Origin: Thiohalocapsa sp.
GTDB lineage: Bacteria > Pseudomonadota > Gammaproteobacteria > Chromatiales > Chromatiaceae
Direction of reading: 5' to 3'
Length of the DNA stretch: 64,000 nt
NCBI GenBank assembly: GCA_028277725.1
Contig: JANQFX010000034.1
Coordinates: 1 to 64,000 of the forward strand
The notes below the pieces were generated by a model, which searched no databases, had not been told where the DNA came from, and saw nothing but the letters and a program-made list of their open reading frames with translations. Numbering within the stretch: position 1 is the stretch's first letter; every line of letters starts with the position of its first letter. Both the position numbers and the translations under genes were made by a program. Below are positions 418 through 40,723 of the stretch, piece by piece.

Positions 418-2361
418 TCAACGGACCGCCAGGGCGATACGACTGCTGTGGTCGGGCACGACCAGCGTCCGTTCGGTAACGGGTCCGAACAGATCTTGCG
501 GCTGCTGCACCGCGTGCTCGCCGAGCTGGATCGTAATCGTGCTGCCCGGCTCCACGTACCATATGTGGAAGGTGTCGAAACTCCCCGGTCGGCGAGGCTG
601 CGTACCGAGTACCTCCCCTGTCTCGGTATTCAGCACCCGCGCATAGGGTGCTTGGTTCGGATTGGGCACCATGATCCGAAAGTCCGTACTGCCTGCGCGC
701 GGGACGATATCGAGATCGAAGCCGAAGGCCATGCCGTGGACCGCATCCGGATCGAAGCTCGCGGCGCGCCCGCCGACGTTGGTCTGCACGGGCATTGCCT
801 TGGCGACCGTATAGGTATTGCCAGGGACGCTGGTCAGGCGGTAGCTATTGCCTTCGATCCTCCCGGCATCGCGCCCCTGGTCCATAAACGGATACAGCGT
901 GGGGATGTAGCGCTGCCCCAACCAATCCTCCAGGGTCTGTCCACCGTTCAGATCCGGACGATAGCCCTCGACCAGCGCCAACGCACGCGGCTCAAGCTCC
1001 GCGCGCGTCCGCAGGACGGTCCAGTCTTCGTCGGGCAGGTTCGGTCGTTGGAAGTATGTGGCCGACCTGCTCATGATCTGATCGTCGCCCTTGAGGTGCA
1101 CGTAGCTGATGACGGGATGTTGCGCGATCTTCAACCCCGCGGACCACATGGCCTCGACCACCGCATCGGCGATCTCGCGGGCCGACTCGAGCTGGTAGGC
1201 TGCATAGCCGCTCTCATCGAACGCACGCATGTACTCGAGAGACAACAGGGCTTGGGCCAGCACGGCGCGCCATTGGTCGCGATACTGGTCCACATATAAC
1301 CAGTAGTCCTCAAGGTCGCTGACCGTCTCGGTGTAGAGATGCGCCTCCATCAGCATGGCCAGTGTTCCGTGGCCGCCGACGACTGCCGTGCGAATGCCGC
1401 GCACCGCCTGGGTGACGTCTGTCACATACCGCTCGACCAGCGACTCGGTCGGCGGATTCTCTTCGGTCCAGAATCCGATCAGGTTGAACAGATCCTCGAT
1501 CTGCGGCAGCACCAGCAGCCGAAGCGTATTGTCGTTGCTGCGGAAGGTGTCCCACATCGCCTTTGCGGTGGCATCGTCGATCTGGTCGACGAGTCGGTCG
1601 AGCTGGAGTGCGATGTCGTCCATCTTGTCGTGGATCAGGACCATCGAGGCATCCAGGTCGCGCAGCGCGGATTGCATGTTCTGTAGCGTTGCCTCCTGAC
1701 CGTAGCCCAGCAGATCAAGGATCTTGCCCATGCCCTCCTCACCGACCTTTCCGATCGCACCGCTGAACAGGCCCTGACCGACGACTCGGGCAATCTGGGT
1801 CCAACCCATCGCCCTGTCTGTGGAATGGAGAGCGGAAGGCCAGGTCTCACGTGGGCCAAAGATGGTCTCGTAGTACTCCAGGCTGTCCTCGAGCCCTTCC
1901 GCGATTGCCAGGAGCTCTTCGTTGATCGCCTGATCACGCTCGAGCAGGTAGTGGCCGTCAGGGTCGATGATCGTGATCGCCTGCGGCTCAGACTCGTTGC
2001 AGCCGTCGGCGTTGCACAGGACCGTAGACAGCGAAAACTCGCCGCCGTCGCCGAACGACAGGGTCGTCCCGCCGCTGGCAGCGCCGACCGGGTCGATGCC
2101 CAGGACCCGCATTGGCACGCCGTCCACAAGGTACTGGACGCTATCGGCAGGGTCGCCGCCCATCTGATGCCAGCTCACCGGGACCTCGACATCATGGCCG
2201 GGCGCCGGGAGACGGAACTCCGTCTCGTTGATCTCGAGTCGTGGCTGGCCCGGTGCCGCGATCGCTCCGGAGGACGCCGCCAGCACGGCGGCAGCAAGGA
2301 CTGCCATACGGAATGCGGATCGCCGACTTGATCGGCTCCATCGGAGCGTATGTGTGGTCAT
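418..2361 (-). CDS. Large secreted protein of unknown function with helical core
   Basis: This 647-residue protein is not one I recognise. Residues 1-35 form a clear Sec signal peptide (basic start, hydrophobic core, AIA-A cleavage region), so it is exported. Residues 36-140 look like a beta-rich Ig-like segment with a cysteine pair (CNADGC). Residues about 150-330 are strongly helical with heptad-like spacing around MQSALRDLDASMVLIHDKMD, next to a glycine-rich stretch (GLFSGAIGKVGEEGMGKILD). The C-terminal third looks beta-rich. A long helical bundle with a glycine-rich hydrophobic hairpin is seen in alpha-helical pore-forming proteins, but this is only a resemblance. The start is preceded by GAGGAA at good spacing. 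The gene stands alone, with no operon partner. Confidence 0.7.
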   Translation of the reverse strand: MTTHTLRWSRSSRRSAFRMAVLAAAVLAASSGAIAAPGQPRLEINETEFRLPAPGHDVEVPVSWHQMGGDPADSVQYLVDGVPMRVLGIDPVGAASGGTTLSFGDGGEFSLSTVLCNADGCNESEPQAITIIDPDGHYLLERDQAINEELLAIAEGLEDSLEYYETIFGPRETWPSALHSTDRAMGWTQIARVVGQGLFSGAIGKVGEEGMGKILDLLGYGQEATLQNMQSALRDLDASMVLIHDKMDDIALQLDRLVDQIDDATAKAMWDTFRSNDNTLRLLVLPQIEDLFNLIGFWTEENPPTESLVERYVTDVTQAVRGIRTAVVGGHGTLAMLMEAHLYTETVSDLEDYWLYVDQYRDQWRAVLAQALLSLEYMRAFDESGYAAYQLESAREIADAVVEAMWSAGLKIAQHPVISYVHLKGDDQIMSRSATYFQRPNLPDEDWTVLRTRAELEPRALALVEGYRPDLNGGQTLEDWLGQRYIPTLYPFMDQGRDAGRIEGNSYRLTSVPGNTYTVAKAMPVQTNVGGRAASFDPDAVHGMAFGFDLDIVPRAGSTDFRIMVPNPNQAPYARVLNTETGEVLGTQPRRPGSFDTFHIWYVEPGSTITIQLGEHAVQQPQDLFGPVTERTLVVPDHSSRIALAVR

Positions 2362-2673
2362 CGTCGTTTCCTCTTCTGGGCCGGAAGGCCGTCGTCGGCA
2401 GACGAGGTCGCCGCTCTGGAGGGGACACGCGTGCCGGTGCCCGGCAATGAGTCGCGGGGCCGTGAATCGACCAACCTGGCGACTCTTCGTAGGGTCAAGT
2501 ATCGAATCCGACGGGTTACGGGAGTTGGGCCAGCAGGTTAAATCGCTGTCACCAAGACTTGGGCCACCAGAGGCTTGGGCCTCTGGGCATCGAGGAAGGC
2601 GCCGAGAGGCTCATCAAGGGTTGCGTACAGGACACTACGGGTGATGATGGAACGCGTGGGGCGGCGGTCATCA
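2362..2673. other. Intergenic region between secreted protein gene and XafT-like gene
   Basis: These 312 bases lie upstream of the secreted-protein gene and downstream of the XafT-like gene, both on the minus strand. They must hold the promoter of the secreted-protein gene. The only clear structure is the perfect inverted repeat at 2567-2586, listed separately. I see no convincing open reading frame. Confidence 0.5.
2567..2586. terminator. Perfect 8-bp hairpin downstream of the XafT-like gene
   Basis: The arms CCAGAGGC and GCCTCTGG are separated by a TTGG loop. The hairpin lies about 90 bases downstream of the XafT-like gene stop. There is no T-tract on either side, so it is a weak candidate for an intrinsic terminator. 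It could instead be a hairpin belonging to an integrated element. Confidence 0.35.
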
Positions 2674-2946
2674 TCACTTCATCGACAGCGCCTGCAGTTC
2701 GGCCTCGAGGGCCTCGATGCGCCGCCGCTGCTCGGTGACCTGCTGGCGGTAGAAAGCCAGGGCGAAGAAGTCCCCGGGGGTGATGCCGCCGCGGCGATAG
2801 CCCGGCGGGAACAACGACCCGCCGTGCATCTCCCAGCCGTCCCAGCCGGGCCAGGGAACGAAGCCGGCGAGGATCGCGAGCAGTCGCACGGCCGTGGGAC
2901 TGGGTTCGCCGGTCTGGAGCCAGCGACGATAGGTACGCGGCGACAC
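2674..2946 (-). CDS. VC1465/XafT-like (DUF3653) Xer recombination activator
   Basis: The 90-residue product from the GTG at 2946 has the second half of a helix-turn-helix (SPRTYRRWLQTGEPSPTAVR), a middle segment of W-x-G-W-x-x-x-G-G form ending in GITPGDFFALAFYRQQ, and a C-terminal coiled coil (residues about 65-88). This matches the VC1465/XafT family, small proteins of TLC-type satellite phage and related elements that stimulate XerCD recombination at dif. The frame stays open upstream to 3123 and encodes the first half of the HTH (LTPLEAASALCV), so the true protein is longer than 90 residues. No ATG, GTG or TTG occurs in that extension, so the start is non-canonical (CTG) or lost. The extension runs to within the dif-like site at 3107-3134. 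Family call moderately sure; functionality uncertain. Confidence 0.6.
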   Translation of the reverse strand: MSPRTYRRWLQTGEPSPTAVRLLAILAGFVPWPGWDGWEMHGGSLFPPGYRRGGITPGDFFALAFYRQQVTEQRRRIEALEAELQALSMK

Positions 2947-3106
2947 GCACAGGGCCGATGCCGCCTCCAGGGGGGTCAGCCTGGCGCGCTGTTGCAGGGG
3001 TCGGAGGGTGGACAGATTGGCCGCGAAGCCTTCGGCCAGGAGTTCGTCATCGAGGCCGCGGAACCAGCGTTGGCGCGGGATTGGGGAGTCCTGCCCCTGA
3101 TCCTTG

Positions 3107-3134
3107 ACTGCGCAGAATGTATATTATGTAAAGT
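3107..3134. other. dif: dif-like XerC/XerD recombination site
   Basis: Reading the plus strand, an 11-base left arm ACTGCGCAGAA (3107-3117) is followed by the six-base centre TGTATA (3118-3123) and an 11-base right arm TTATGTAAAGT (3124-3134). The E. coli dif arms are GGTGCGCATAA and TTATGTTAAAT around the same TGTATA centre. By eye the agreement is 23 of 28 positions, with an identical centre. dif is the chromosome-dimer resolution site and also the attachment site of elements that exploit Xer recombination. The XafT-like gene abuts it, which supports the assignment. I cannot tell whether this is the chromosomal dif itself or an att site of an integrated element. Confidence 0.75.
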
Positions 3135-3227
3135 CATAGATCTAGAAGGCTGTGCTGATCTTCGTCTAGCACGCGGTCACTACGCGAGCACGCCCGACAA
3201 GACCCTACTCCGACGGAGCGCTTCTGC

Positions 3228-4523
3228 CTACTCCATCATGTCGTTGATGACGTTCTTGAACCAGCTGTGGGCGTAGCTGACCTCGCGCTTGCGGATCTCG
3301 GGGCTGGCGTTGGCCGGCGAGACACCGCCGGAGCCCGGGATGGGTTCGATCATGTTGGTTGCTGCGTCCAGGCTGTAGACAGCGGCGACGGAGATGCCGA
3401 AGTCCTCGCCGACGACGCTGTAGCAGGTGTTGACGAAGGTCGGATCGTCCGGAGCCCTGTCGTGGAACCCGGCGACGATGGCCGCCACGGCGACCTTGGC
3501 CTGTGAGTTCGCGGCATAGGCGGACTTGGGCATCCGGGATGCACTGGACGCATCCCCGAGCACGTAGATGCCCTTGTGGCGGCTGGACTCGAAGGTGCGC
3601 TTGTCCACCGGACACCAATCGCCTTCCACCAAGTCGGCTGCGAAGGCGATGGCGCCGGCCTTCTGCGGTGGGATGATGTTGATGACGTCGGCCTGGAAGT
3701 CCTCCACGAGCCCGATCAGGGTGCGCGTGCTGGCGTCGAGTTCCTCCACCGCGCCGCCTTCTGCCGCGCTCACCCACTGGATCATGCTGTCGTCCGTGCC
3801 ATAGCCATAGAGCTTGGTCCAGCCTTCGGTGTAGAGGCCCTGTTTCGAGAAGGCGTCCTTGGCGTCCAGGATGCTCACCTTGGCCCGCGGCTTGTGGTGT
3901 TTGCAGTACATGGCGATCTGCGAGGCGCGCTCGTAGGGGCCCGGAGGACACTTGAACGGGTTTGGCGGGGCCACGATGATGACGTGGCCGCCCTCGGGCA
4001 TGGCCTCGATCTGATCCCGCAGGAGCTGGGTTTGGGGGCCGGCGTACCAGGCGTGGGGAATGCTCTCGTTGGCGATCTGCTCGCCATAGCCCGCGATGGC
4101 GTCCCATTTGAAGCCGACGCCCGGTGACACGATGCAGGCGTCGTAGCCGAAGCTGTTGCCCCCCGCCGTCTGGACGTTCTTCGCAACCGGGTCGACGCCG
4201 ACGACGGTATCTTGCACCACTTCGACGCCATACCGGCGCAGGCCGTCGTAGCTGAACACCAGTGTGTCCAGCGTGCGCTCACCGCTCAGTACCTCATTGC
4301 TCATGAAGCAGGAGGTGTAGGTCGGCTTTGACTCGATCAGGGTGACGGAGATGGCCGGGTCGAGCTTGCGCAGGTACTTGGCCGCGGTGCAACCGCCGAC
4401 GCCGCCGCCGATCACCACCACGCGGCGTGTCGCGCCCAACACCAAGGACGGGAAACCCAAGGTGCCCAGGGCCGTGACGCCGCCTGCGGCTTCAATGAAG
4501 GTTCTGCGCGTGAGGTCTGTCAT
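3228..4523 (-). CDS. fccB: Flavocytochrome c sulfide dehydrogenase, flavoprotein subunit FccB
   Basis: FccB oxidises sulfide in the periplasm and passes electrons through FAD to the cytochrome subunit FccA. The 431-residue precursor begins with a twin-arginine signal (LTRRTFIEAAGG) that probably ends near residue 30. An FAD-binding motif VVVIGGGVGG follows. Cys72 (in TSCFMSNEVL), Cys192 (in PFKCPPGP) and Cys367 (in NTCYS) become 42, 162 and 337 after signal removal. These correspond to the covalent FAD cysteine and the redox-active cysteine pair known in Allochromatium vinosum FccB. The C-terminal FCSD dimerisation domain is present. It is the last gene of a three-gene operon, 21 bases after fccA. 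All key residues are intact. Confidence 0.93.
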   Translation of the reverse strand: MTDLTRRTFIEAAGGVTALGTLGFPSLVLGATRRVVVIGGGVGGCTAAKYLRKLDPAISVTLIESKPTYTSCFMSNEVLSGERTLDTLVFSYDGLRRYGVEVVQDTVVGVDPVAKNVQTAGGNSFGYDACIVSPGVGFKWDAIAGYGEQIANESIPHAWYAGPQTQLLRDQIEAMPEGGHVIIVAPPNPFKCPPGPYERASQIAMYCKHHKPRAKVSILDAKDAFSKQGLYTEGWTKLYGYGTDDSMIQWVSAAEGGAVEELDASTRTLIGLVEDFQADVINIIPPQKAGAIAFAADLVEGDWCPVDKRTFESSRHKGIYVLGDASSASRMPKSAYAANSQAKVAVAAIVAGFHDRAPDDPTFVNTCYSVVGEDFGISVAAVYSLDAATNMIEPIPGSGGVSPANASPEIRKREVSYAHSWFKNVINDMME

Positions 4524-31553: not shown

Positions 31554-32204
31554 ATGAACACCCATCCAACAGCAACAAGTTCCCCCTGCAGCTCGCGCCG
31601 CCCTTGTGCCATGCGACGCCAGGATGCGCCTCGCCCCGCAGCGCGAGCCCGCGCAGGCTTCACGCTCGTGGAACTGATGATCACCATCTCCATCAGCGTC
31701 ATCCTACTCACGGTGGGCATGCCCGGCTTCTCGGCGATGATCAAGAACCAAGTCCTGTCCGCCGAGGCGCGGACCTTCTCCATGACACTCGCGTTGGCGA
31801 GGTCGCAAGCACAATCGCGAAAGACACAGATGGTGCTCTGCAAGAGCCCCAACGGAACCAGTTGCAGCAGGCTCAGCACCGACTTCTGGGAGTCTGGCTG
31901 GATTCTGTTCGTCGACGCCGACGTCGACGGCACGCGGGACGTCGGCGACGACGCCGAGACCATCCTGCGTCACTTCGAGGGCCGGGGCAACGGATTCCGC
32001 CTCAGACCAACGGCCGCATACACGAACTACATCGCCTTCGGGCTAGACGGACGGGCCTTCGGTAGTGGCGATACGACCCCTCCGACGTCGGGCAGCTACC
32101 GTTTCTGCGACGCTAGGGGTGCCGACCATGCTCGTACCGTCACGATTTCCCCAATCGGCCGCAGCCGCGTGGCGCAAGGTCTTGGCGCTCCGTCATGTCC
32201 CTGA
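31554..32204 (+). CDS. fimT: FimT/GspH-family minor pseudopilin
   Basis: The 216-residue protein has a long basic leader and a type III prepilin signal: cleavage before Phe in AGFTLVELMITISISVILLTVGMPGF, with the conserved Glu at +5. The GspH/FimT domain follows, ending with SPIGRSRVAQG. FimT-type proteins are minor components of type IV pili and can bind DNA. The leader of about 35 residues is longer than usual, so the in-frame Met at MRRQDAP may be the true start. It begins the minor pilin cluster and precedes pilV by about 33 bases. Confidence 0.85.
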   Translation: MNTHPTATSSPCSSRRPCAMRRQDAPRPAARARAGFTLVELMITISISVILLTVGMPGFSAMIKNQVLSAEARTFSMTLALARSQAQSRKTQMVLCKSPNGTSCSRLSTDFWESGWILFVDADVDGTRDVGDDAETILRHFEGRGNGFRLRPTAAYTNYIAFGLDGRAFGSGDTTPPTSGSYRFCDARGADHARTVTISPIGRSRVAQGLGAPSCP

Positions 32205-32237
32205 TGCCCGGCGGTCTATCCATTTGGAGCATTGACC

Positions 32238-32855
32238 GTGGTGGACGCACCCAATCCACGCATCCGCACGCAGCACCGGCGGTTCCCGTCACAACAGGGG
32301 CTCTCGATGATCGAGGTCCTGGTGGCCGTCTTCATCTTCGCCTTCGGCGGCATGGCCGCGGCAACCATGCAAATCCTCGCGGCGCAGGCAAATCTGGAGG
32401 CGATGCAACGTACCCAAGCAGTCCATCTTGCAACCGACATACTCGAGCGCATGCGCAACAACGCACGGGCGCTCGCACAGTACGACAGTGCTGCCGACGC
32501 CGACTGGACCGTCCTCGGTAACGCGACTCGAGGCAGCGAACCGACACCCCATTGCGACACGGCCGCCTGTTCCTCGTCCGAAAGGGCTGCGCACGACCTC
32601 TGGGTCTGGGAACGCGCCCTCGACGGATACGACGTCGAGCGCGAAAACGGCTCGCCTGCCGGCGGCCTCATCCGGCCCACCGGCTGCATCCGCAACACCG
32701 GCAACGGACGCATCGAGCTCGCCGTAGCTTGGTACGGGCGCCGCGACAAGGTGAACTCCCATGTCGCCACCGAGTGCACCGCAGAGGGCCGCTATGGGGA
32801 TGCCGATCAGTTTCGGCGAGTCCTACGATTCCGCACTTACATCACGCCGCTATGA
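32238..32855 (+). CDS. pilV: Type IV pilus minor pilin PilV
   Basis: The 205-residue protein carries the prepilin signal QQGLSMIEVLVAVFIFAFGGMAAATMQ, with cleavage after Gly and Glu at +5. It has four cysteines in its C-terminal domain. Size, position between fimT and pilW, and the domain MQRTQAVHLATDILERMRNNARA fit PilV. A GGAG ribosome site eight bases before the GTG at 32238 supports that start over the TTG at 32232. Its stop overlaps the pilW start (ATGA). Confidence 0.87.
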   Translation: MVDAPNPRIRTQHRRFPSQQGLSMIEVLVAVFIFAFGGMAAATMQILAAQANLEAMQRTQAVHLATDILERMRNNARALAQYDSAADADWTVLGNATRGSEPTPHCDTAACSSSERAAHDLWVWERALDGYDVERENGSPAGGLIRPTGCIRNTGNGRIELAVAWYGRRDKVNSHVATECTAEGRYGDADQFRRVLRFRTYITPL

Positions 32856-33964
32856 CCATCAACCGCAAGAGCGCAAGAAACATGCGCCCGTCCCTCATCC
32901 AACAAGCTGGCCTGACCCTGGTCGAGCTGATGGTCGCGATGCTGCTCGGCTTGTTCATCGCCGGCGGATCCCTTGGTCTATTCGTCACAAACAAGGCCGT
33001 CTACACGGACACCGGGCGCAACACGGAGCTTCAGGACAATGCCAGATTTGCTCAACAGTACCTCACCGACGATATCCGTCATTCGTTCCTGTTTGGCGGC
33101 GCCACCAGGGATACCACGAGCATCCGCAACGCACTCGCGTCCGCCAATGCCTCCATCGCCGGCTACTGTACCGAAGACTCCGAAAACCCAAGACCAATGG
33201 CGGGGGCCTTTTCCCTGGGCTCAGCGGTCTACGGGACGAGCGCCGTCTCCGGCGAGGCCATCCGTTGTATTGCCGACGCCGCGCAAGTCAGTGGCCTACC
33301 GTCCGATGTATTGATCATAAAAATGGTCGATCGTGAGCCACTCGATACCAAAACCGCCCTCACTCCCGGTTCTGTCTATCTTACCGCAAACACGATCGCT
33401 GGGGACTTGCGCCTCTTCTCCGACTCCAGCACGGCCATGCCGGTCGTCTCCAAGAACTGTAAAGGACTAACGGACTGCTACCCCTACGGCCTCTACTGGA
33501 GATTCCTGTACCACGTCTACTACATCCGTGATGCCAATCCCCTGGACGACCAACCCCCGACGCTTTCCCGCAAAACTCTACAATGGACGAGCGAAACGGG
33601 CATGACACTAGAGGTGGAGGATCTCGTAGAGGGTGTCGAAGCCATGCGCGTGCAATTCGGCGTTCGCAAAGACGAAGAATCGGACACGGACACCATACTC
33701 CACTTCTATTCTGCGGCCAACGTTCCCGATATAGAATGGGAAAATCAGAGGTTCGAAGCAGTCCGAGTAGCCCTGTTATTGCGAAGTTTACATCCGGACC
33801 GATCATATAGCGACACGTCGACCTATGTCCTCGGAGACGTCGAGGCCGACTTCGCCACTGGCTCGTTCGCAACGAATCTCAGCCAAGGGGCTGAACTGCG
33901 CAATTTCCACCGTCGAGTCATCACGGATACGATTTGGTCTCGCAATCGTTCTATCATTGAATGA
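32852..33964 (+). CDS. pilW: Type IV pilus minor pilin PilW
   Basis: The 370-residue protein has a prepilin signal at residues about 18-45 (QQAGLTLVELMVAMLLGLFIAGG) and the PilW domain with DNARFAQQYLTDDIRHSFLFGG and ALLLRSLHPD. It overlaps pilV by four bases and precedes pilX. The codon use and G+C of this and the next two genes look somewhat lower than their neighbours, though I have not measured it. It should be processed by PilD and assembled at the pilus tip complex with PilX, PilV and PilY1. Confidence 0.88.
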   Translation: MTINRKSARNMRPSLIQQAGLTLVELMVAMLLGLFIAGGSLGLFVTNKAVYTDTGRNTELQDNARFAQQYLTDDIRHSFLFGGATRDTTSIRNALASANASIAGYCTEDSENPRPMAGAFSLGSAVYGTSAVSGEAIRCIADAAQVSGLPSDVLIIKMVDREPLDTKTALTPGSVYLTANTIAGDLRLFSDSSTAMPVVSKNCKGLTDCYPYGLYWRFLYHVYYIRDANPLDDQPPTLSRKTLQWTSETGMTLEVEDLVEGVEAMRVQFGVRKDEESDTDTILHFYSAANVPDIEWENQRFEAVRVALLLRSLHPDRSYSDTSTYVLGDVEADFATGSFATNLSQGAELRNFHRRVITDTIWSRNRSIIE

Positions 33965-34038
33965 TGCGCCCGGAACAGGCGCAAATTCAGGTCGGGTCAG
34001 CAAGACCCTAGCTCCGCCACGACAGATGTCACCGCCAC

Positions 34039-34593
34039 ATGAGAGATTGGACGAGATTTATGCCAATGACGAGCACCCCCGACTCTCGTGGCTTCGCGCT
34101 CGTTACCAGCCTGATCATCCTCGCCATGCTCGCCTTGCTCGGAGCTGCAGCGATGACGGCGACCAATACCGAGCTACGCGTCGCCGGCGACTCCGAAGAC
34201 AGGGCCCGTTCGTTCGAGGCGGCCGAAGCAGGACTCAATGCGGCTTTGACCATCGTCGCCACCGACCTGGCTCGACTGCCCCTTTCGGGTGGCAGCCTCG
34301 ACATAGATTTCACGTCCCTGGGCGATCAGAACCCATTACAGCACCTTCTCAGTGACGCCGCGGGAGCTGGCTCCAACAACAGCGATAACGATATGCCTGT
34401 TGTTACCGCCACCATCAGCGGAGATCCGAAGGGCAAGTGTGCGCGATCAGCGGATGCCTCCAGTGACGATCTCCTCGGTTGCAGCGCGTTCGCCTTGACG
34501 AGCACACACCACAAGGGGACCGAAGATGATCCCCGGGGGCATTTCTCGACAACGGTCCAGATGGGCGTAACGACCCAGCGAATCAAGGACTGA
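34039..34593 (+). CDS. pilX: Type IV pilus minor pilin PilX
   Basis: The 184-residue protein has the PilX N-terminal pattern SRGFALVTSLIILAMLALLGAAAMTATNTELRVAGDSEDRARSFEAAEAGLNAAL. The membrane helix is followed by the N-terminal PilX motif, with no Glu at +5, as is normal for PilX. Start could be here or at Met 34060. It lies between pilW (75 bases) and pilY1 (157 bases). It is expected to work with PilY1 at the pilus tip. Confidence 0.86.
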   Translation: MRDWTRFMPMTSTPDSRGFALVTSLIILAMLALLGAAAMTATNTELRVAGDSEDRARSFEAAEAGLNAALTIVATDLARLPLSGGSLDIDFTSLGDQNPLQHLLSDAAGAGSNNSDNDMPVVTATISGDPKGKCARSADASSDDLLGCSAFALTSTHHKGTEDDPRGHFSTTVQMGVTTQRIKD

Positions 34594-34750
34594 CGACCGT
34601 TCGAGATCCGAAACTCTGCATGATACTGCGACACTACATATCGACTGCAGGCGGATTTGCAGATCGCGGCCGCCAAAGATATCCGTGCGGTGCGTTGGTA
34701 TATTCGGGTGGACGAGCCGCCCAGAACGCACTCGAATGGGGAAACACCCA

Positions 34751-37700
34751 ATGACTCGCCGTTCCGCTCTCTGTCTCAGCTTCTTCTTGGGCTTCGCGCT
34801 AGGTTGTCCGACACTGGCTGACGACACGGAGATCTTTCTAACGCAGTTCAGTGGGACCGGCCAGAGTAGCGGTCGGCCAAAGGTGCTTATTCTCTTCGAC
34901 AACTCCGGAAGTATGCGCGACGGTGTTCCCAACGCCAAGCCCGACTTCGACCCGGCAATCGACTGGACCACCTACGACGGTGCCCCGGACAACTTCGTAC
35001 ACTCGAGGATCTACTGGTCCTTCGACGGCGACCCACCGATCGAGTCCACGGATCGCTATGTGCCCAGCACCTCGAATCAATGCGCGACCGCTGTGACACC
35101 CCTCACCGAAACCGGTCGTTACACAGACTACGTCCGCGTCTGGCGAGAGGGTCAGGGAATCATTGGCACGGAAACTTGGGACGAATGCGATTGCCAGTAT
35201 CGGTTCTCCGGTTCGTCGAGATGGTATCGCTCCCGTTATCAAATCGGCGAGGAGGACTGTCTATCCCGTAATCGACCCGGTTTGAGGTACCGCTGGCGGT
35301 GCGAAACGAGAGAACGCGACGTATTCGGAACACGCGATATGTGGCGGTCCGTTGAGGACAACAACGATACCAGGGCGACGATCCATCTGGAATGCGCTGC
35401 AGATATTGACGCCGACGACCCGAGCAACCCCAACGCCGACGATGGATGGGCGAGCGATACGGATGGGCCGTTCCGCGTGAGTGCCGTCGGTGCACCTTGG
35501 GCGAGTTGGGATCAGCGTCATGACGGAGACCTCGTTAGGACCTTGTTTACAGGCAACTATCTCGCCTGGTACTACAATGACGACTTGATCGAGAATCGGA
35601 CCAAAATGGAGATCGCACAGGATGTTGTCACTGAAATGATCGCGAACAATCCGCAGGTCGATTTTGGCGTTATGTTGTTCAATCATAACGATGGCAATGA
35701 CAGCAACGACGAGAACGGCGGACGCGTCGTCCGCCATGTGACGCGCATGGAGCAGTCCGACCGTGATGCGCTAGTGAGCCTTATCGAAGGGCTTTCGCCG
35801 GAGACCTGGACGCCGTTGTGCGAGACCTACTACGAGTCGTATCGCTATATCGCCCGTCCGGGCGGGCGCGATCAAACGGTTCTGTTTGGCGACGATGACA
35901 GCACCCGGCAGCCTTATCGTGACCCCTGTGCCGAGAATGAGGCGGGCAGCTGTTCTAATGACGGCAGCTACAATTCACCGATGGGAGATTGCGAGAACCT
36001 CTATGTCGTCGTGATGACCGATGGCAAACCGACCTATGACACGGCCGCTAATTCACGCATCAAGTCGCTGCTCGGTCTGTCGGAGTGCGCGACATTCCCC
36101 ACGGATCACAGGAACGACGACTTGCAAGAGAATTGCATGCCGGCGCTAGCTCGACACATGTTCGAAAGTGACCTCGACGACGACTGGAAGAACGGTGATC
36201 AACGCGTCATTACGTATACAATCGGATTTCTGATCGATCAGGACATTCTCAGCCAGACGGCGGAGTTCGGCGGTGGCACTTACTACACCGCCTACAATGC
36301 CCACGAACTCGCGGACGCGTTCCAGGCGACGCTGACTGAGATACTGTCCAGCAATACCTCTTTCGCTGCTCCCGCCGTCGCCGTGGACGCCTACAACCGG
36401 ACCAAGAGTCTAAACGCCGAGTACATCGCGATGTTCCGTCCAAAAGCGAGTCCACGCTGGCCGGGCAACCTGAAGAAGCTAGAGATGCAACGAATCGCGG
36501 GGACCATCTACGAGGAAGTTGTCGACAAGAATGGCGTTCGAGCCATCGACCCTGTCTCCGGACATATCAAGGACACGGCGACGACCTTCTGGACGACCGA
36601 GGGCGTCGATGGAATGGAGGTCGATCAGGGCGGCGCCGGCGAGCGTTTGATCCTGCGCAACCCCACGACACGCACAATCTTCACCAACACCGGCGAAGAC
36701 GGGACATTAGAGGACTTCGTAGTGGGCAACGACAACTTGACAGCCGCAATGGTTGGTGCAAGTGATGCTACGAAGAGGTCCAATTACATCAACTGGGCAC
36801 GCGGTATCGATGTGCTCGACGAGGATAGCGACGACGACACCACGGACGCACGCCCATGGATCCTTGGCGACGTGATGCATTCCACTCCAGAGGCGATCAA
36901 CTACGGCGGCTCCGGCGACGCCGACGTTCGTATCGTATTCGGCACGAATGCCGGCTTCCTGCATATGATCGACGCCGAGACCGGCGAGGAGTCCTGGGCC
37001 TTCTTCCCCAAGGAGCTGGGCTCTATCATTTCCACGCTGTACGACAACGCCCCGCACGAAGAGCATCCCTATGGTATCGATGGAAGCCCAGGGGTCTGGA
37101 TCAATGATGTCGATGGGGACGGCGATATCGTCGTGGCGGACGACGATCAGGTACTGTTGTTCTTCGGTTTGCGCCGTGGCACCGAGAGCACGGAGGCGAC
37201 CGGCGGCGGCTACTACGCCCTGGACATCTCGGACCCGGACAACCCAAGCTTCCTGTGGCAGGTGGATCAGAGCGACATACCGGAGCTCGGCCAGTCCTGG
37301 TCTCGTCCCGTACCAACCTTCGTGCCTGGCCACGATCACCCGGTCGTGGTGTTCGGCGGAGGGTACGACAGCAACAAGGACCTGCTGAGTGTCGGTACAG
37401 CAGACAGCGTTGGGCGGGGCATTTTTGTACTCAACGCCCTCACGGGGGAACTGGTATGGAGCGTTTCCCCCGATGCCGGCTCCGACACAAATCTGCAAGA
37501 GACACGCCTGCTCCATAGCGTGCCGGCACGGGTCACGGTTCTGGACAGCAACGGCGACCACGTGACGGACCGCATGTACTTTCCGGATACGGGAGGTAAC
37601 CTTTGGCGGGTGGACCTTGTCAACGGGAACAAGGCCAACTGGAGCATCTTCAAGCTCGCGTCCCTCGGCGGGAACACCCTGCAAACCGACCGCCGGTTCC

Positions 37701-38446
37701 TCCACGGCATCGATCTCTCGGTGACGAAAACGGGCGCACTCGACTATGAGGCGCTCGCCATCGGCAGCGGCAATCGCGCACATCCGCTGGACCGGGACGC
37801 GCAGAATCGCTTCTACCTGTTGCGTGATACAGGTACCCAAAGCGCAAAGCATATACCCAACGATGGCGATTCGAGTACCAATGCCTGTGAAAGCGCCAAC
37901 CTTGAACCGGCCGGCTTGCCGTGTCGTGAAGTTCCGGCCCTGATCACGGAAGCCGATCTCTATGATGCCACCGACAATTTGGTGCAGGACGGCACGGATG
38001 AGGGGCGCGGCGCGGCACGCTTGGCCTTGGCGTCGGCTGGTAGTGGCTGGTTTATCGATCTGGAGCGGACTGGTGAAAAGAGCCTGTCGCGTTCCATCAC
38101 GTTACAGGGTACCCTGTTCTTCACCACCTACGTGCCGCCCGACCCGCTGGACCCTGAGGCGGAACACGTATGTCGCCCGTCAGAGGGCACCGGCTTTCTG
38201 TACGCCGTGGGCCTGCACGATGCATCGGCGAAGTATGATTGGGCGCAGCCCCAAGACGGCGATCTCCGCAAGGCCGACCGAAGCAAGAAGATCAAAGACC
38301 ACATTCCCGACCACCCGGTCGCTTACTTCGGTAAGGTCGAAATCGGTCTCGTCGGTGTCGGTGCGGGTACCGATAGCACTGGAATCGAACGGACCAGCCT
38401 CGCGTTGACTGTGGGGCCCGCGTACTGGATGCAGCAGCGGGACTAA
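34751..38446 (+). CDS. pilY1: Type IV pilus tip adhesin/assembly protein PilY1
   Basis: The 1231-residue protein has a signal peptide, an N-terminal von Willebrand A domain with the MIDAS motif DNSGSM (Asp50 to Ser54), and a C-terminal PilY1 beta-propeller. A calcium-binding loop NDVDGDGDIVVADDD lies in the propeller, matching the loop known to control retraction in Pseudomonas PilY1. The vWA domain is expanded by Cys- and Arg-rich inserts (residues about 120-200). GGGGAA lies seven bases before the ATG at 34751. PilY1 acts at the cell surface at the pilus tip in adhesion, twitching and surface sensing. It sits in the usual order after pilX. Confidence 0.93.
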   Translation: MTRRSALCLSFFLGFALGCPTLADDTEIFLTQFSGTGQSSGRPKVLILFDNSGSMRDGVPNAKPDFDPAIDWTTYDGAPDNFVHSRIYWSFDGDPPIESTDRYVPSTSNQCATAVTPLTETGRYTDYVRVWREGQGIIGTETWDECDCQYRFSGSSRWYRSRYQIGEEDCLSRNRPGLRYRWRCETRERDVFGTRDMWRSVEDNNDTRATIHLECAADIDADDPSNPNADDGWASDTDGPFRVSAVGAPWASWDQRHDGDLVRTLFTGNYLAWYYNDDLIENRTKMEIAQDVVTEMIANNPQVDFGVMLFNHNDGNDSNDENGGRVVRHVTRMEQSDRDALVSLIEGLSPETWTPLCETYYESYRYIARPGGRDQTVLFGDDDSTRQPYRDPCAENEAGSCSNDGSYNSPMGDCENLYVVVMTDGKPTYDTAANSRIKSLLGLSECATFPTDHRNDDLQENCMPALARHMFESDLDDDWKNGDQRVITYTIGFLIDQDILSQTAEFGGGTYYTAYNAHELADAFQATLTEILSSNTSFAAPAVAVDAYNRTKSLNAEYIAMFRPKASPRWPGNLKKLEMQRIAGTIYEEVVDKNGVRAIDPVSGHIKDTATTFWTTEGVDGMEVDQGGAGERLILRNPTTRTIFTNTGEDGTLEDFVVGNDNLTAAMVGASDATKRSNYINWARGIDVLDEDSDDDTTDARPWILGDVMHSTPEAINYGGSGDADVRIVFGTNAGFLHMIDAETGEESWAFFPKELGSIISTLYDNAPHEEHPYGIDGSPGVWINDVDGDGDIVVADDDQVLLFFGLRRGTESTEATGGGYYALDISDPDNPSFLWQVDQSDIPELGQSWSRPVPTFVPGHDHPVVVFGGGYDSNKDLLSVGTADSVGRGIFVLNALTGELVWSVSPDAGSDTNLQETRLLHSVPARVTVLDSNGDHVTDRMYFPDTGGNLWRVDLVNGNKANWSIFKLASLGGNTLQTDRRFLHGIDLSVTKTGALDYEALAIGSGNRAHPLDRDAQNRFYLLRDTGTQSAKHIPNDGDSSTNACESANLEPAGLPCREVPALITEADLYDATDNLVQDGTDEGRGAARLALASAGSGWFIDLERTGEKSLSRSITLQGTLFFTTYVPPDPLDPEAEHVCRPSEGTGFLYAVGLHDASAKYDWAQPQDGDLRKADRSKKIKDHIPDHPVAYFGKVEIGLVGVGAGTDSTGIERTSLALTVGPAYWMQQRD

Positions 38447-38474
38447 TTCCCGCGCTGCATAGACAGAATCTGAA

Positions 38475-38807
38475 ATGACCAAGAGATCGCTTATCAGTGC
38501 CATGCTGGGCGCGGCCGTGATGTTCTCCGGCGCCAACTGCGCGCTCGGCCAATTCATGCCACCGCTGAGCGCGGACACTCCAGAGTACAAATGCCATGTG
38601 CTGTCGTCCGTGAACGGAGTGACAGTAATCCGTTTCTACGACCGTCGCGATCTGCCCGCCCGTTTCTCGGACGCGGAGACGGTCGGACGTGCAGCGATTC
38701 CGGACTCCTTGCGCAACACGCTGAGCGCAGTCTACGAATGCGTGTTAGCCTCCGAGACCTTTTCCAATCCCTTCGCCAATTCCCTGGAACAACAGGTACC
38801 GCAGTGA
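38475..38807 (+). CDS. Small secreted protein between pilY1 and pilE
   Basis: The 110-residue product has a signal peptide (residues 1-25, ending CALG-Q) and two cysteines (KCHV and YECV) that may form a disulfide in the periplasm. I do not recognise the family. The gene follows pilY1 by 28 bases, and its TGA overlaps the GTG start of pilE, so it is coupled to pilus genes. This argues for a role as a pilus assembly or accessory factor. Confidence 0.7.
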   Translation: MTKRSLISAMLGAAVMFSGANCALGQFMPPLSADTPEYKCHVLSSVNGVTVIRFYDRRDLPARFSDAETVGRAAIPDSLRNTLSAVYECVLASETFSNPFANSLEQQVPQ

Positions 38808-39346
38808 TACACCTCGAACGAGAACTGGTCGCTGTATTCAACGCGAAGAGATCAGTCTTCCGCGGCTATTCACTGATCGAGGTGCTGGTGGTCGTGGCGG
38901 TCGTCGGTGTCTTGGCGGCGATTGCCTATCCGAGCTATCACTCCCAGGTCATCAAGACCCGTAGAACGGAAGCGCAATCCCTACTGCTCGACATTGCCGC
39001 TCGACAGGAGGCTTTCTACACCGACAACAAGACCTTTACTGTCGATATGACAGATTTGGGTTTTGCCTGCGACCCCGTATTCAACGAACAGTGCGAGACC
39101 AATCCGTCCACCAATTGCGATCCCTGTGAGGCAGATCGCCCAAACGTCCACTACCGAGCCGATGCCGTCGCGGGCGACACGGGGGATATCCGTACCAGCT
39201 TCGTCGCTACGGCGGTGCGCGTCAATCAGCAAACAGCGGACACCACCTGCTACGATTTCACGGTCGATTCGAATGGCAATCGGGGTCTGACGAACTTCCC
39301 GGATTCCGATGACAGCTCGGCCGCTGCGCCGACGAATTGTTGGTGA
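38804..39346 (+). CDS. pilE: PilE-like type IV pilin
   Basis: The 180-residue protein has a prepilin leader and signal FRGYSLIEVLVVVAVVGVLAAIAYPSY, with cleavage after Gly, Glu at +5 and a PilE-type continuation SQVIKTRRTEAQSLLLDIAARQEAFY. Six cysteines in the C-terminal half (FACDP, EQC, TNCDPC, TTCYD, TNCW) suggest several disulfides. The GTG start at 38804 overlaps the preceding stop. It is the last gene of the cluster, the standard position for the PilE-type minor pilin. Confidence 0.88.
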   Translation: MIHLERELVAVFNAKRSVFRGYSLIEVLVVVAVVGVLAAIAYPSYHSQVIKTRRTEAQSLLLDIAARQEAFYTDNKTFTVDMTDLGFACDPVFNEQCETNPSTNCDPCEADRPNVHYRADAVAGDTGDIRTSFVATAVRVNQQTADTTCYDFTVDSNGNRGLTNFPDSDDSSAAAPTNCW

Positions 39347-39826
39347 CAGGAGGCCCGAGTCTAGCGATTGGTTTCGCGGTCGGACGTCGGCTTTGGTTAC
39401 GACAACTGTAGCGGAGCGCTTGCATGGCTAGGCACTATTGGCGCGACGAAACCAGGGCCGAGAGCCCTGTCTACGCATATTCCTAGACGGAGTAGTTGAC
39501 CGCGCCGACGTCTGTGCAAGGCACTGACTTGGTTCTGGTTGCGCGGCGTAGTTCAGATCAGCCATTGGGCGACGGGCGCTGCGGTCGCCCTGGCATGCAC
39601 CGCGGGGCATCCAGCTTCGTTGCAACTCCTTGGAACAGTGTGACGATTCCGCGTCGTTGTGCCTCCTGGGCCAATGTGGGATCAGGCCCGCGGGACACAC
39701 CCTGACGACCTTCCAACCGCCCCATCTGGGAGAATGCATGCTCTCAGGGTACGAAAGACGATCACTATTCTCGGTACCGAGTCGATCGGTTGTAACCCCG
39801 TCGATCAACACCTCTACCAAACACCT
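39347..39826. other. 480-base stretch without a clear gene
   Basis: This gap separates pilE from aguB. A CCAGGGCCGAGAGCCCTGT-like imperfect hairpin near 39448-39466 may terminate the pilus transcript. Minus-strand frames here are open for a while but have no ribosome site and no family I recognise. They may be remnants of an interspersed element. The aguB promoter must lie at the right end. Confidence 0.35.
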
Positions 39827-40723
39827 ATGGCGACAAGAAGAGGCATACGCGTACTTGTCCATCAAGGCAGGCTCGGCGATGCCGAGGGCCTGGAACACGC
39901 ATTCGTCACCGCCTGCGTCCACGCAGCTCGATCCAACTGCCGGCTGTTGGTCCTCCCCGAACTGCACCAGTCCGCCTACTTCTGCCAACGGGAGGACCCG
40001 GCGTGTTTCGACCTGGCGGAATCGATCCCTGGCCCAACCACGGAGCGCTTGGGTGCGCTTGCGGCCGAGTACCGGCTGGTCATCGTCGGTTCCCTGTTCG
40101 AACGACGGGCCGCGGGCCTCTACCACAACACCGCGGTGGTCCTGGACAGCGACGGCAGCCTGGCCGGGGTCTACCGCAAGATGCACATCCCGGACGACCC
40201 GGGCTACTACGAGAAGTTCTACTTCACGCCCGGCGATCTGGGTTTCGTGCCCGTCGACACCTCGGTCGGCCGACTCGGTGTGTTGGTCTGTTGGGATCAA
40301 TGGTATCCGGAGGCGGCTCGGCTCATGTCGATGGCGGGCGCGGAGCTGTTGCTCTATCCCACCGCCATCGGCTGGGACCCGGCGGACGATGCCGCCGAGC
40401 GCGCCCGACAACTCGATGCCTGGCGCACAGTACAGCGCGGCCACGCCGTCGCCAACGGCCTGCCCGTACTGGCTTGCAATCGGATCGGATTCGAGGCCGC
40501 GCCCGACGCCTCCAGTCCAAACGACGGCATCCAATTCTGGGGTAACTCCTTCGCCTGCGGGCCGCAGGGTGAGCTACTCGCCAGTGCCTCTGACACGGAG
40601 CCCCAGAACCTCGTCGTGGACATCGATCTCGCTCGCGGCGAGGCCGTGCGACGCATCTGGCCCTTCTTCCGCGACCGCCGCATCGACGCCTATGCGGACC
40701 TCCTTGAGCGCTGGCGCGACTGA
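39827..40723 (+). CDS. aguB: N-carbamoylputrescine amidase AguB
   Basis: AguB hydrolyses N-carbamoylputrescine to putrescine, CO2 and ammonia in the cytoplasm. The 298-residue nitrilase-fold protein has the catalytic triad Glu45 (LVLPELHQ), Lys118 (GVYRKMHI) and Cys155 (GVLVCWDQWYPEAARLM). The stretch CWDQWYPEAARLMSMAGAE followed by LLLYPTAIGW is typical of AguB rather than other nitrilases. The ATG at 39827 is the first Met before the conserved part. Agmatine deiminase (aguA), the usual partner, is not adjacent. Confidence 0.92.
   Translation: MATRRGIRVLVHQGRLGDAEGLEHAFVTACVHAARSNCRLLVLPELHQSAYFCQREDPACFDLAESIPGPTTERLGALAAEYRLVIVGSLFERRAAGLYHNTAVVLDSDGSLAGVYRKMHIPDDPGYYEKFYFTPGDLGFVPVDTSVGRLGVLVCWDQWYPEAARLMSMAGAELLLYPTAIGWDPADDAAERARQLDAWRTVQRGHAVANGLPVLACNRIGFEAAPDASSPNDGIQFWGNSFACGPQGELLASASDTEPQNLVVDIDLARGEAVRRIWPFFRDRRIDAYADLLERWRD

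Follow-up and report, generated by a model that had tools for sequence, protein, structure and literature searches.

A chromosomal dif site in Thiohalocapsa abutted by a start-less xafT-like frame, the probable scar of a TLC-phi-like satellite element proposed to silence its own activator by integrating

The window (64,000 nucleotides, i.e. the whole stretch of DNA analysed here) covers positions 1 to 64,000 of a 120.5-kb contig from Thiohalocapsa sp. (assembly of 4.35 Mb, 121 contigs, 83.7% complete). Near its left end lies a dif site, abutted on one side by a frame similar to xafT of TLC-phi (xafT-like genes are termed xaf in the following) and followed on the other side by a gene of the chromosomal flank (Table 1).

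Table 1. Coordinates of the features around dif in the window
Feature	Position	Strand	Remarks
647-aa ORF, ChitinaseA_N domain	418..2361	-	at the position of rep in relatives; no element gene detected
Start-less xafT-like (VC1465 family) frame, orphan	2674..3123	-	149 codons + stop; starts in the dif centre
First ATG/GTG/TTG of the xaf frame	2944..2946	-	GTG, 60th codon, within the helix-turn-helix
Chromosomal dif	3107..3134	+	XerC arm 3107-3117, centre TGTATA 3118-3123, XerD arm 3124-3134; assigned by site matching and KOPS polarity
TAA from the dif XerD arm	3124..3126	-	in-frame stop immediately ahead of xaf
Flavocytochrome c sulfide dehydrogenase flavoprotein	3228..4523	-	chromosomal flank, XerD side of dif

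The 28-bp site ACTGCGCAGAATGTATATTATGTAAAGT is a real chromosomal dif, one of the readings proposed in the first-pass annotation, which had noted its exact TGTATA centre. It is the only dif-like site of the window at up to 3 mismatches, it did not occur in any of 100 shuffled sequences, and the whole-assembly search suggested in that annotation returned a single match in the 121 contigs. The arms are named by analogy with E. coli dif, and 23 of the 28 positions (five differences) agree with the E. coli site; the same count had been made earlier by eye. The commonest form among the congeners, ATTGCGCATAATGTATATTATGTAAAGT, is present exactly in 4 of the 8 congeners that have a site near this form, and the window dif is identical to it in 26 of 28 positions, with both mismatches within the XerC arm. 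The KOPS motif GGGNAGGG occurs to the right of dif 17 times on the minus and twice on the plus strand, i.e. 17 of 19 copies point to dif (p 7e-4), this evidence for the terminus pertaining to the right replichore, with only 3.1 kb of sequence to the left of dif. The proposed location at the replication terminus is thus upheld by KOPS polarity, but not in full by base composition: the GC skew is negative in 17 of the 24 5-kb bins (120 kb), yet positive in the first two, and its cumulative maximum falls at 15-20 kb, only roughly near dif and not at it. A XerD-like protein is encoded as well (284.9 bits against the XerD model, under its cut-off of 329.6).

Several minor features of dif and its surroundings were observed in addition. 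At positions 32001-40000 the G+C content drops to ~0.58-0.60, against ~0.64-0.70 in the rest of the window, which possibly marks an island. An incomplete copy of dif (gcgcgcacaatgtata) sits directly against dif, just left of 3693, in locus L040 (G007:C491). A second dif-like site with the common centre TCTATT, possibly a VGJ-type att site, occurs in three Chromatiaceae (G019:C89:1734, G434:C30:39291, G467:C99:22634). Conserved synteny of the flanks was rejected, as the window's flanking genes are absent from beside dif in the other loci fetched at that stage, save for an aconitase in one locus, and a pdif-like cassette was considered as a reading of the window locus and dropped.

The frame adjoining dif on the minus strand had been annotated as DUF3653/VC1465-like. 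Its product matches NCBIfam NF040522 ("VC1465 family Xer recombination activation factor") with an E-value of 1.6e-8, although its score of 34.6 bits is half of the curated cut-off (70 bits); Pfam DUF3653 is not matched, only HTH models under their cut-offs, and a profile search of PDB sequences identified no convincing relative (best E 0.083). The combination named beforehand as fatal to the annotation, a better dif elsewhere and no HMM match for the neighbouring protein, did not occur. Judged by sequence similarity, the frame is a divergent homolog of XafT (VC1465 family), and its product is predicted to be an activator of XerD. None of its first 59 codons is ATG, GTG or TTG. In phase with the TAA of dif and with no start ahead of the domain, it has the form expected of a xaf gene that has been split.

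A profile built from three homologs was used to search 194 Chromatiaceae genomes and matched in 28 of them, including Thiohalocapsa marina DSM 19078 (G006), Allochromatium, Thiocystis and Thiorhodococcus; the family and order samples are the same 210 genomes and yield the same 24 matches at E 1e-15. dif was located by pattern in this genome sample and by a weight matrix in the fetched loci, 8 of 40 of which were left out of the dif and half-site analysis (L177, L179, L182, L184, L188, L190 and L194 because no full dif was recognised in them by the matrix scan; L192 as the second dif of G460). In 26 of the 28 genomes a xaf homolog is situated no more than 1.8 kb from dif, always next to the XerC arm and pointing away from the site, with G525 and G481 counted only via the matrix, since the pattern overlooked their variant-centre dif. 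The two exceptions, G436 and G550, are weak matches with xaf 122 and 69 kb off dif, respectively. In one genome, G406, an additional match, weak at 25 bits, lies across dif from the first; outside Chromatiaceae, xaf is found on the XerD side in G145 and G279, and in G369 (L181, G369:C49) divergent xaf-like genes flank dif (11207) on both sides. That the window frame could be an unrelated HTH gene placed beside dif by chance, as its score at half of the family cut-off might suggest, is scarcely credible: the family-wide linkage to dif, with side and direction shared by 26 of 28 homologs, already refutes it, and the element boundaries found at dif speak against it as well.

As to these boundaries, a second full dif near xaf was rejected as a candidate, there being at most one full site per locus; therefore, 36 loci were scanned for half-sites consisting of an intact XerC arm and centre, a search that gave 1 match in 508 kb of shuffled control. 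Half-sites are present in 17 of the 36 loci, 0.93-7.2 kb from dif and on the xaf side. Compared with the dif of their own genome they preserve 8-11 of 11 positions of the XerC arm and 5-6 of 6 of the centre, but merely 1-5 of 11 of the XerD arm. No half-site was found in the remaining 19 loci, several of which end close by; two more weak matches were noted in G443 and G516, while G406 and G369 have matches to the centre and XerD arm 10.9 kb away. The elements of the group most similar to the window protein (type A, nine elements, selected ORFs of which were scanned) share one gene order, i.e. half-site, repressor, rep, and then xaf beside dif: a Cro/C1-type repressor reading inward from the half-site was matched in 9/9 and a replication protein (Phage_CRI or REP_ORF2-G2P) in 8/9, all except G443. 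The outlier is G307, whose element is 7.2 kb long and encodes a DUF3653 protein as well as a member of the Zot family.

The comparison of related genomes recommended in the first-pass annotation revealed one empty site, seen from the left: 2,406 aligned bp left of the half-site of G554 correspond (92.6%) to the sequence of G509 up to the base before dif, but the right flanks of the two genomes do not align. We conclude that intact xaf copies belong to TLC-phi-like elements bounded by a half-site and a full dif, and that the full dif is their attR-type end. The interpretation given earlier for the window is supported in both its halves: the site is the chromosomal dif, and its neighbour is the remnant of an element that integrates at this site. 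Searches for a free circular form (window protein against phages and against plasmids, alignment A3 against IMG/VR, and another Chromatiaceae xaf against phages) found none, the plasmid search yielding one weak Vibrio match. Two loci with unusually arranged units deserve mention. L180 (G183:C22) contains a 930-bp unit, from half-site to dif (8719), in which a single 310-aa xaf-like ORF takes up nearly all of the length, and another xaf match lies past the half-site; the unit is possibly a very small IMEX. L178 (G159:C1:1474563, 1476145) contains two similar ~1.6-kb units in tandem at dif, each with a half-site and xaf.

In the group most like the window protein, the att site of the element splits xaf itself, a feature that is new here; the first-pass annotation had noticed neither the missing start codon nor the cause of its loss. 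Type A was defined, after the frames had been seen, as the 13 proteins of alignment A3 together with those of G008, G408, G430 and G477, and 15 of these 17 integrated copies (all but G430 and G408) have the TAA of the XerD arm at codon -1, just before the centre. Against this, the phase is not confined to type A, as 7 of 9 other dif-adjacent copies exhibit it too. At the far end of the elements, an ATG or GTG in the phase of xaf lies 9-15 nt from the centre in 9/9 type-A elements, compared with 0/18 off-phase frames having a start within 20 nt (Fisher 2e-7, for elements that are related by descent and were divided into types A and B after the frames had been seen). In G408 the phase is displaced by one base at either side of the site alike, which is what the two parts of a single gene would show. 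On the other hand, the four non-type-A elements with attL and a dif-adjacent xaf (G460, G360, G159, G183) have no in-phase ATG or GTG; with all 13 elements pooled, an in-phase start is found in 9/13 and an off-phase one in 2/26 (p 1.4e-4).

Tandem arrays allow the junction between two copies to be read directly. A natural tandem is present in Allochromatium palmeri DSM 15591, whereas one copy was found in A. humboldtianum DSM 21881. The inner copies of G493 (GTG-GQTAYTLCAI, frame-shifted later) and G523 (ATG-GQTAYTLSEI, open to the contig end) read through att, which encodes the YTL residues, from the start codon, and read-through at a tandem junction is also seen in G141, whose protein scores above the family cut-off, with the caveats that its site is unrecognised by the matrix and that an ATG lies ~20 codons further in. 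Two inner copies count against the split: the one of G408 is missing its N-terminal part, and the one of G159, which is outside type A, has no start ahead of the site. By eye, the word TGTCAA occurs shortly before the start codon in all nine type-A left ends and is a candidate operator or promoter element; as both are at the left end of the element, integration should remove the start codon and the promoter together. The integrated xaf would accordingly be silent, but not necessarily everywhere: among the 17 integrated type-A copies, G525, G536 and G545 have an ATG 8 codons in, seven have a GTG or TTG in frame ahead of the domain and seven have none. Alternative starts as a general rule were rejected, with no conserved start position being found.

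Published descriptions attribute to TLC-phi an attP with a dif-like XerC arm and centre and a degenerate XerD arm, its own replication module and dif as the target (PMC4246890, PMC5357621), and to its XafT the role of a XerD-activating factor (PMC9765430). TLC-phi of V. cholerae resembles the elements of the relatives in the type of half-site, in having its own replication gene, in the dif target and in the xaf homolog. The latter elements differ in their Chromatiaceae hosts and in the weak match of xaf to the VC1465 model, and the start codon across att may set type A apart from TLC-phi. IMEX with XafT-like proteins are reportedly widespread (Midonet et al. 2019). The closest precedent for a split gene is XacF1, in which attP lies inside ORF12, upstream of the xaf-like gene, and integration splits this ORF; deletion of the 5' part of ORF12 makes integration late and unstable (PMC4076744, PMC5666396). 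The DUF3653/VC1465-like gene that comes next scores above the Pfam cut-off in phiSHP2 (ORF112), but is weak, just below it, in XacF1 (ORF11). In XacF1/Cf1c and Stenotrophomonas phiSHP2 it is the upstream DUF3693 ORF that integration divides, close to the 3' end of this ORF, and the xaf-like ORF retains a start of its own, whereas in type A of Chromatiaceae the xaf-like gene itself loses its 5' end; furthermore, it is the XerD arm that is preserved in the half-site of SHP2 and SMA7, but the XerC arm in those of Chromatiaceae. SSV-type integrases of archaeal viruses carry attP inside the recombination gene, which is broken by integration, but there the recombinase itself is split, in contrast to a helper of the host recombinase in Chromatiaceae. 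The IMEX VGJ-phi and CTX-phi likewise employ host XerCD at dif, but XerC-first, and the centre of VGJ-phi differs near XerD (PMC4246890), whereas the centre here matches dif. Among the literature matches listed, which cover few subscription papers, none described the splitting of a Xer activator gene by the att site of its element, which is weak evidence that no such description exists.

Taking together the site, the homology, the half-site architecture, the phase, two tandem read-throughs and one empty site seen from the left, we propose the following mechanism. In the free circle, xaf would start in the left end of the element and read across attP, and the full-length Xaf would let XerCD recombine attP with dif without FtsK. 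The recombination would leave the XerC side with the gene, and the start codon and presumed promoter would be exchanged for the chromosomal XerD arm, bringing an in-frame stop before xaf. Integration would thus switch off the element's own activator and uncouple the rep gene behind xaf. Somewhat in favour rather than against, we regard the att site as a one-shot switch of a dif-integrating satellite family: xaf would be translated only across attP, and integration would behead it, part the xaf-rep operon from its promoter and give a stable lysogeny with host dif restored, so that only tandem arrays, which rebuild the gene at the inner junctions, could make the activator and move again. Elements that borrow XerCD have to prevent their activator from immediately excising them again. 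The division of xaf by the att site would, if true, provide a built-in off-switch that works with no additional regulator; it could account for start-less XafT-like frames in integrated copies and would predict that tandem arrays behave unlike single copies.

For the window, the chances are about three in four that the locus consists of a working dif and the 3' part of a xafT-like gene, the relic of a TLC-phi-like satellite element whose integration silenced the gene; the rest of this element, attL included, has probably been deleted. The available 3.1 kb do not contain the two att sites and the replication gene of a TLC-type IMEX, and no half-site was found in the 3,106 bp left of dif, the contig ending at position 1. 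This leaves room for the main rival explanation, an unlikely one in our opinion, that a complete live element extends beyond the left end of the contig, with attL, repressor and rep outside and the ORFs at 1-2361 as its cargo; known elements do reach 7.2 kb, and 4 of 9 Thiohalocapsa dif contigs break less than 0.7 kb from dif on the XerC side. However, rep directly follows xaf in the relatives, yet neither rep nor repressor was matched in the window (nor in G006, G008, G422, G430 and G477), the window's assembly contains no second half-site at up to 2 mismatches, and the xaf of T. marina (G006) is likewise devoid of partners, with no half-site within 53 kb.

The frame of the window is undisrupted, which counts against a long-dead gene, as such a gene need not stay intact, and the frame is intact in G000 and G006 though no other part of an element was found. 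One could suppose that it is a domesticated gene, i.e. a resident Xer activator at dif with a non-standard start. We consider this improbable, as the profile finds the gene in just 3 of 10 genomes of the genus, the gene is truncated in G008, no promoter-like match was found at 2300-3400 (a weak argument, with 0.2 expected by chance), and the orphans lose more conserved residues: the three orphan copies of alignment A3 have lost 11/125 otherwise invariant residues compared with 5/385 in ten others (p 2e-4), a difference that may be explained in part by greater sequence distance. The window copy is thus most likely a silent scar with a presumably dead xaf, an instance of what may persist at dif after such an element decays. 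Such scars recur, as indicated by short xaf remnants in two other genomes: G522 has kept 132 bp (88%) and G557 ~37 codons (by eye) of the 5' part of xaf against dif.

The four Thiohalocapsa contigs that end near dif (G002, G004, G005, G009) break 51-659 bp from it on the XerC side, a pattern that integrated copies present as repeats would produce. In G005 the remaining 60 bp resembles, by eye, the xaf 5' end of G008. In G009, another Thiohalocapsa, a perfect XerC arm and centre are found at 131438-131453 of a contig other than that of dif (L213, G009:C9), and this half-site carries the left end of an element with a truncated repressor start.
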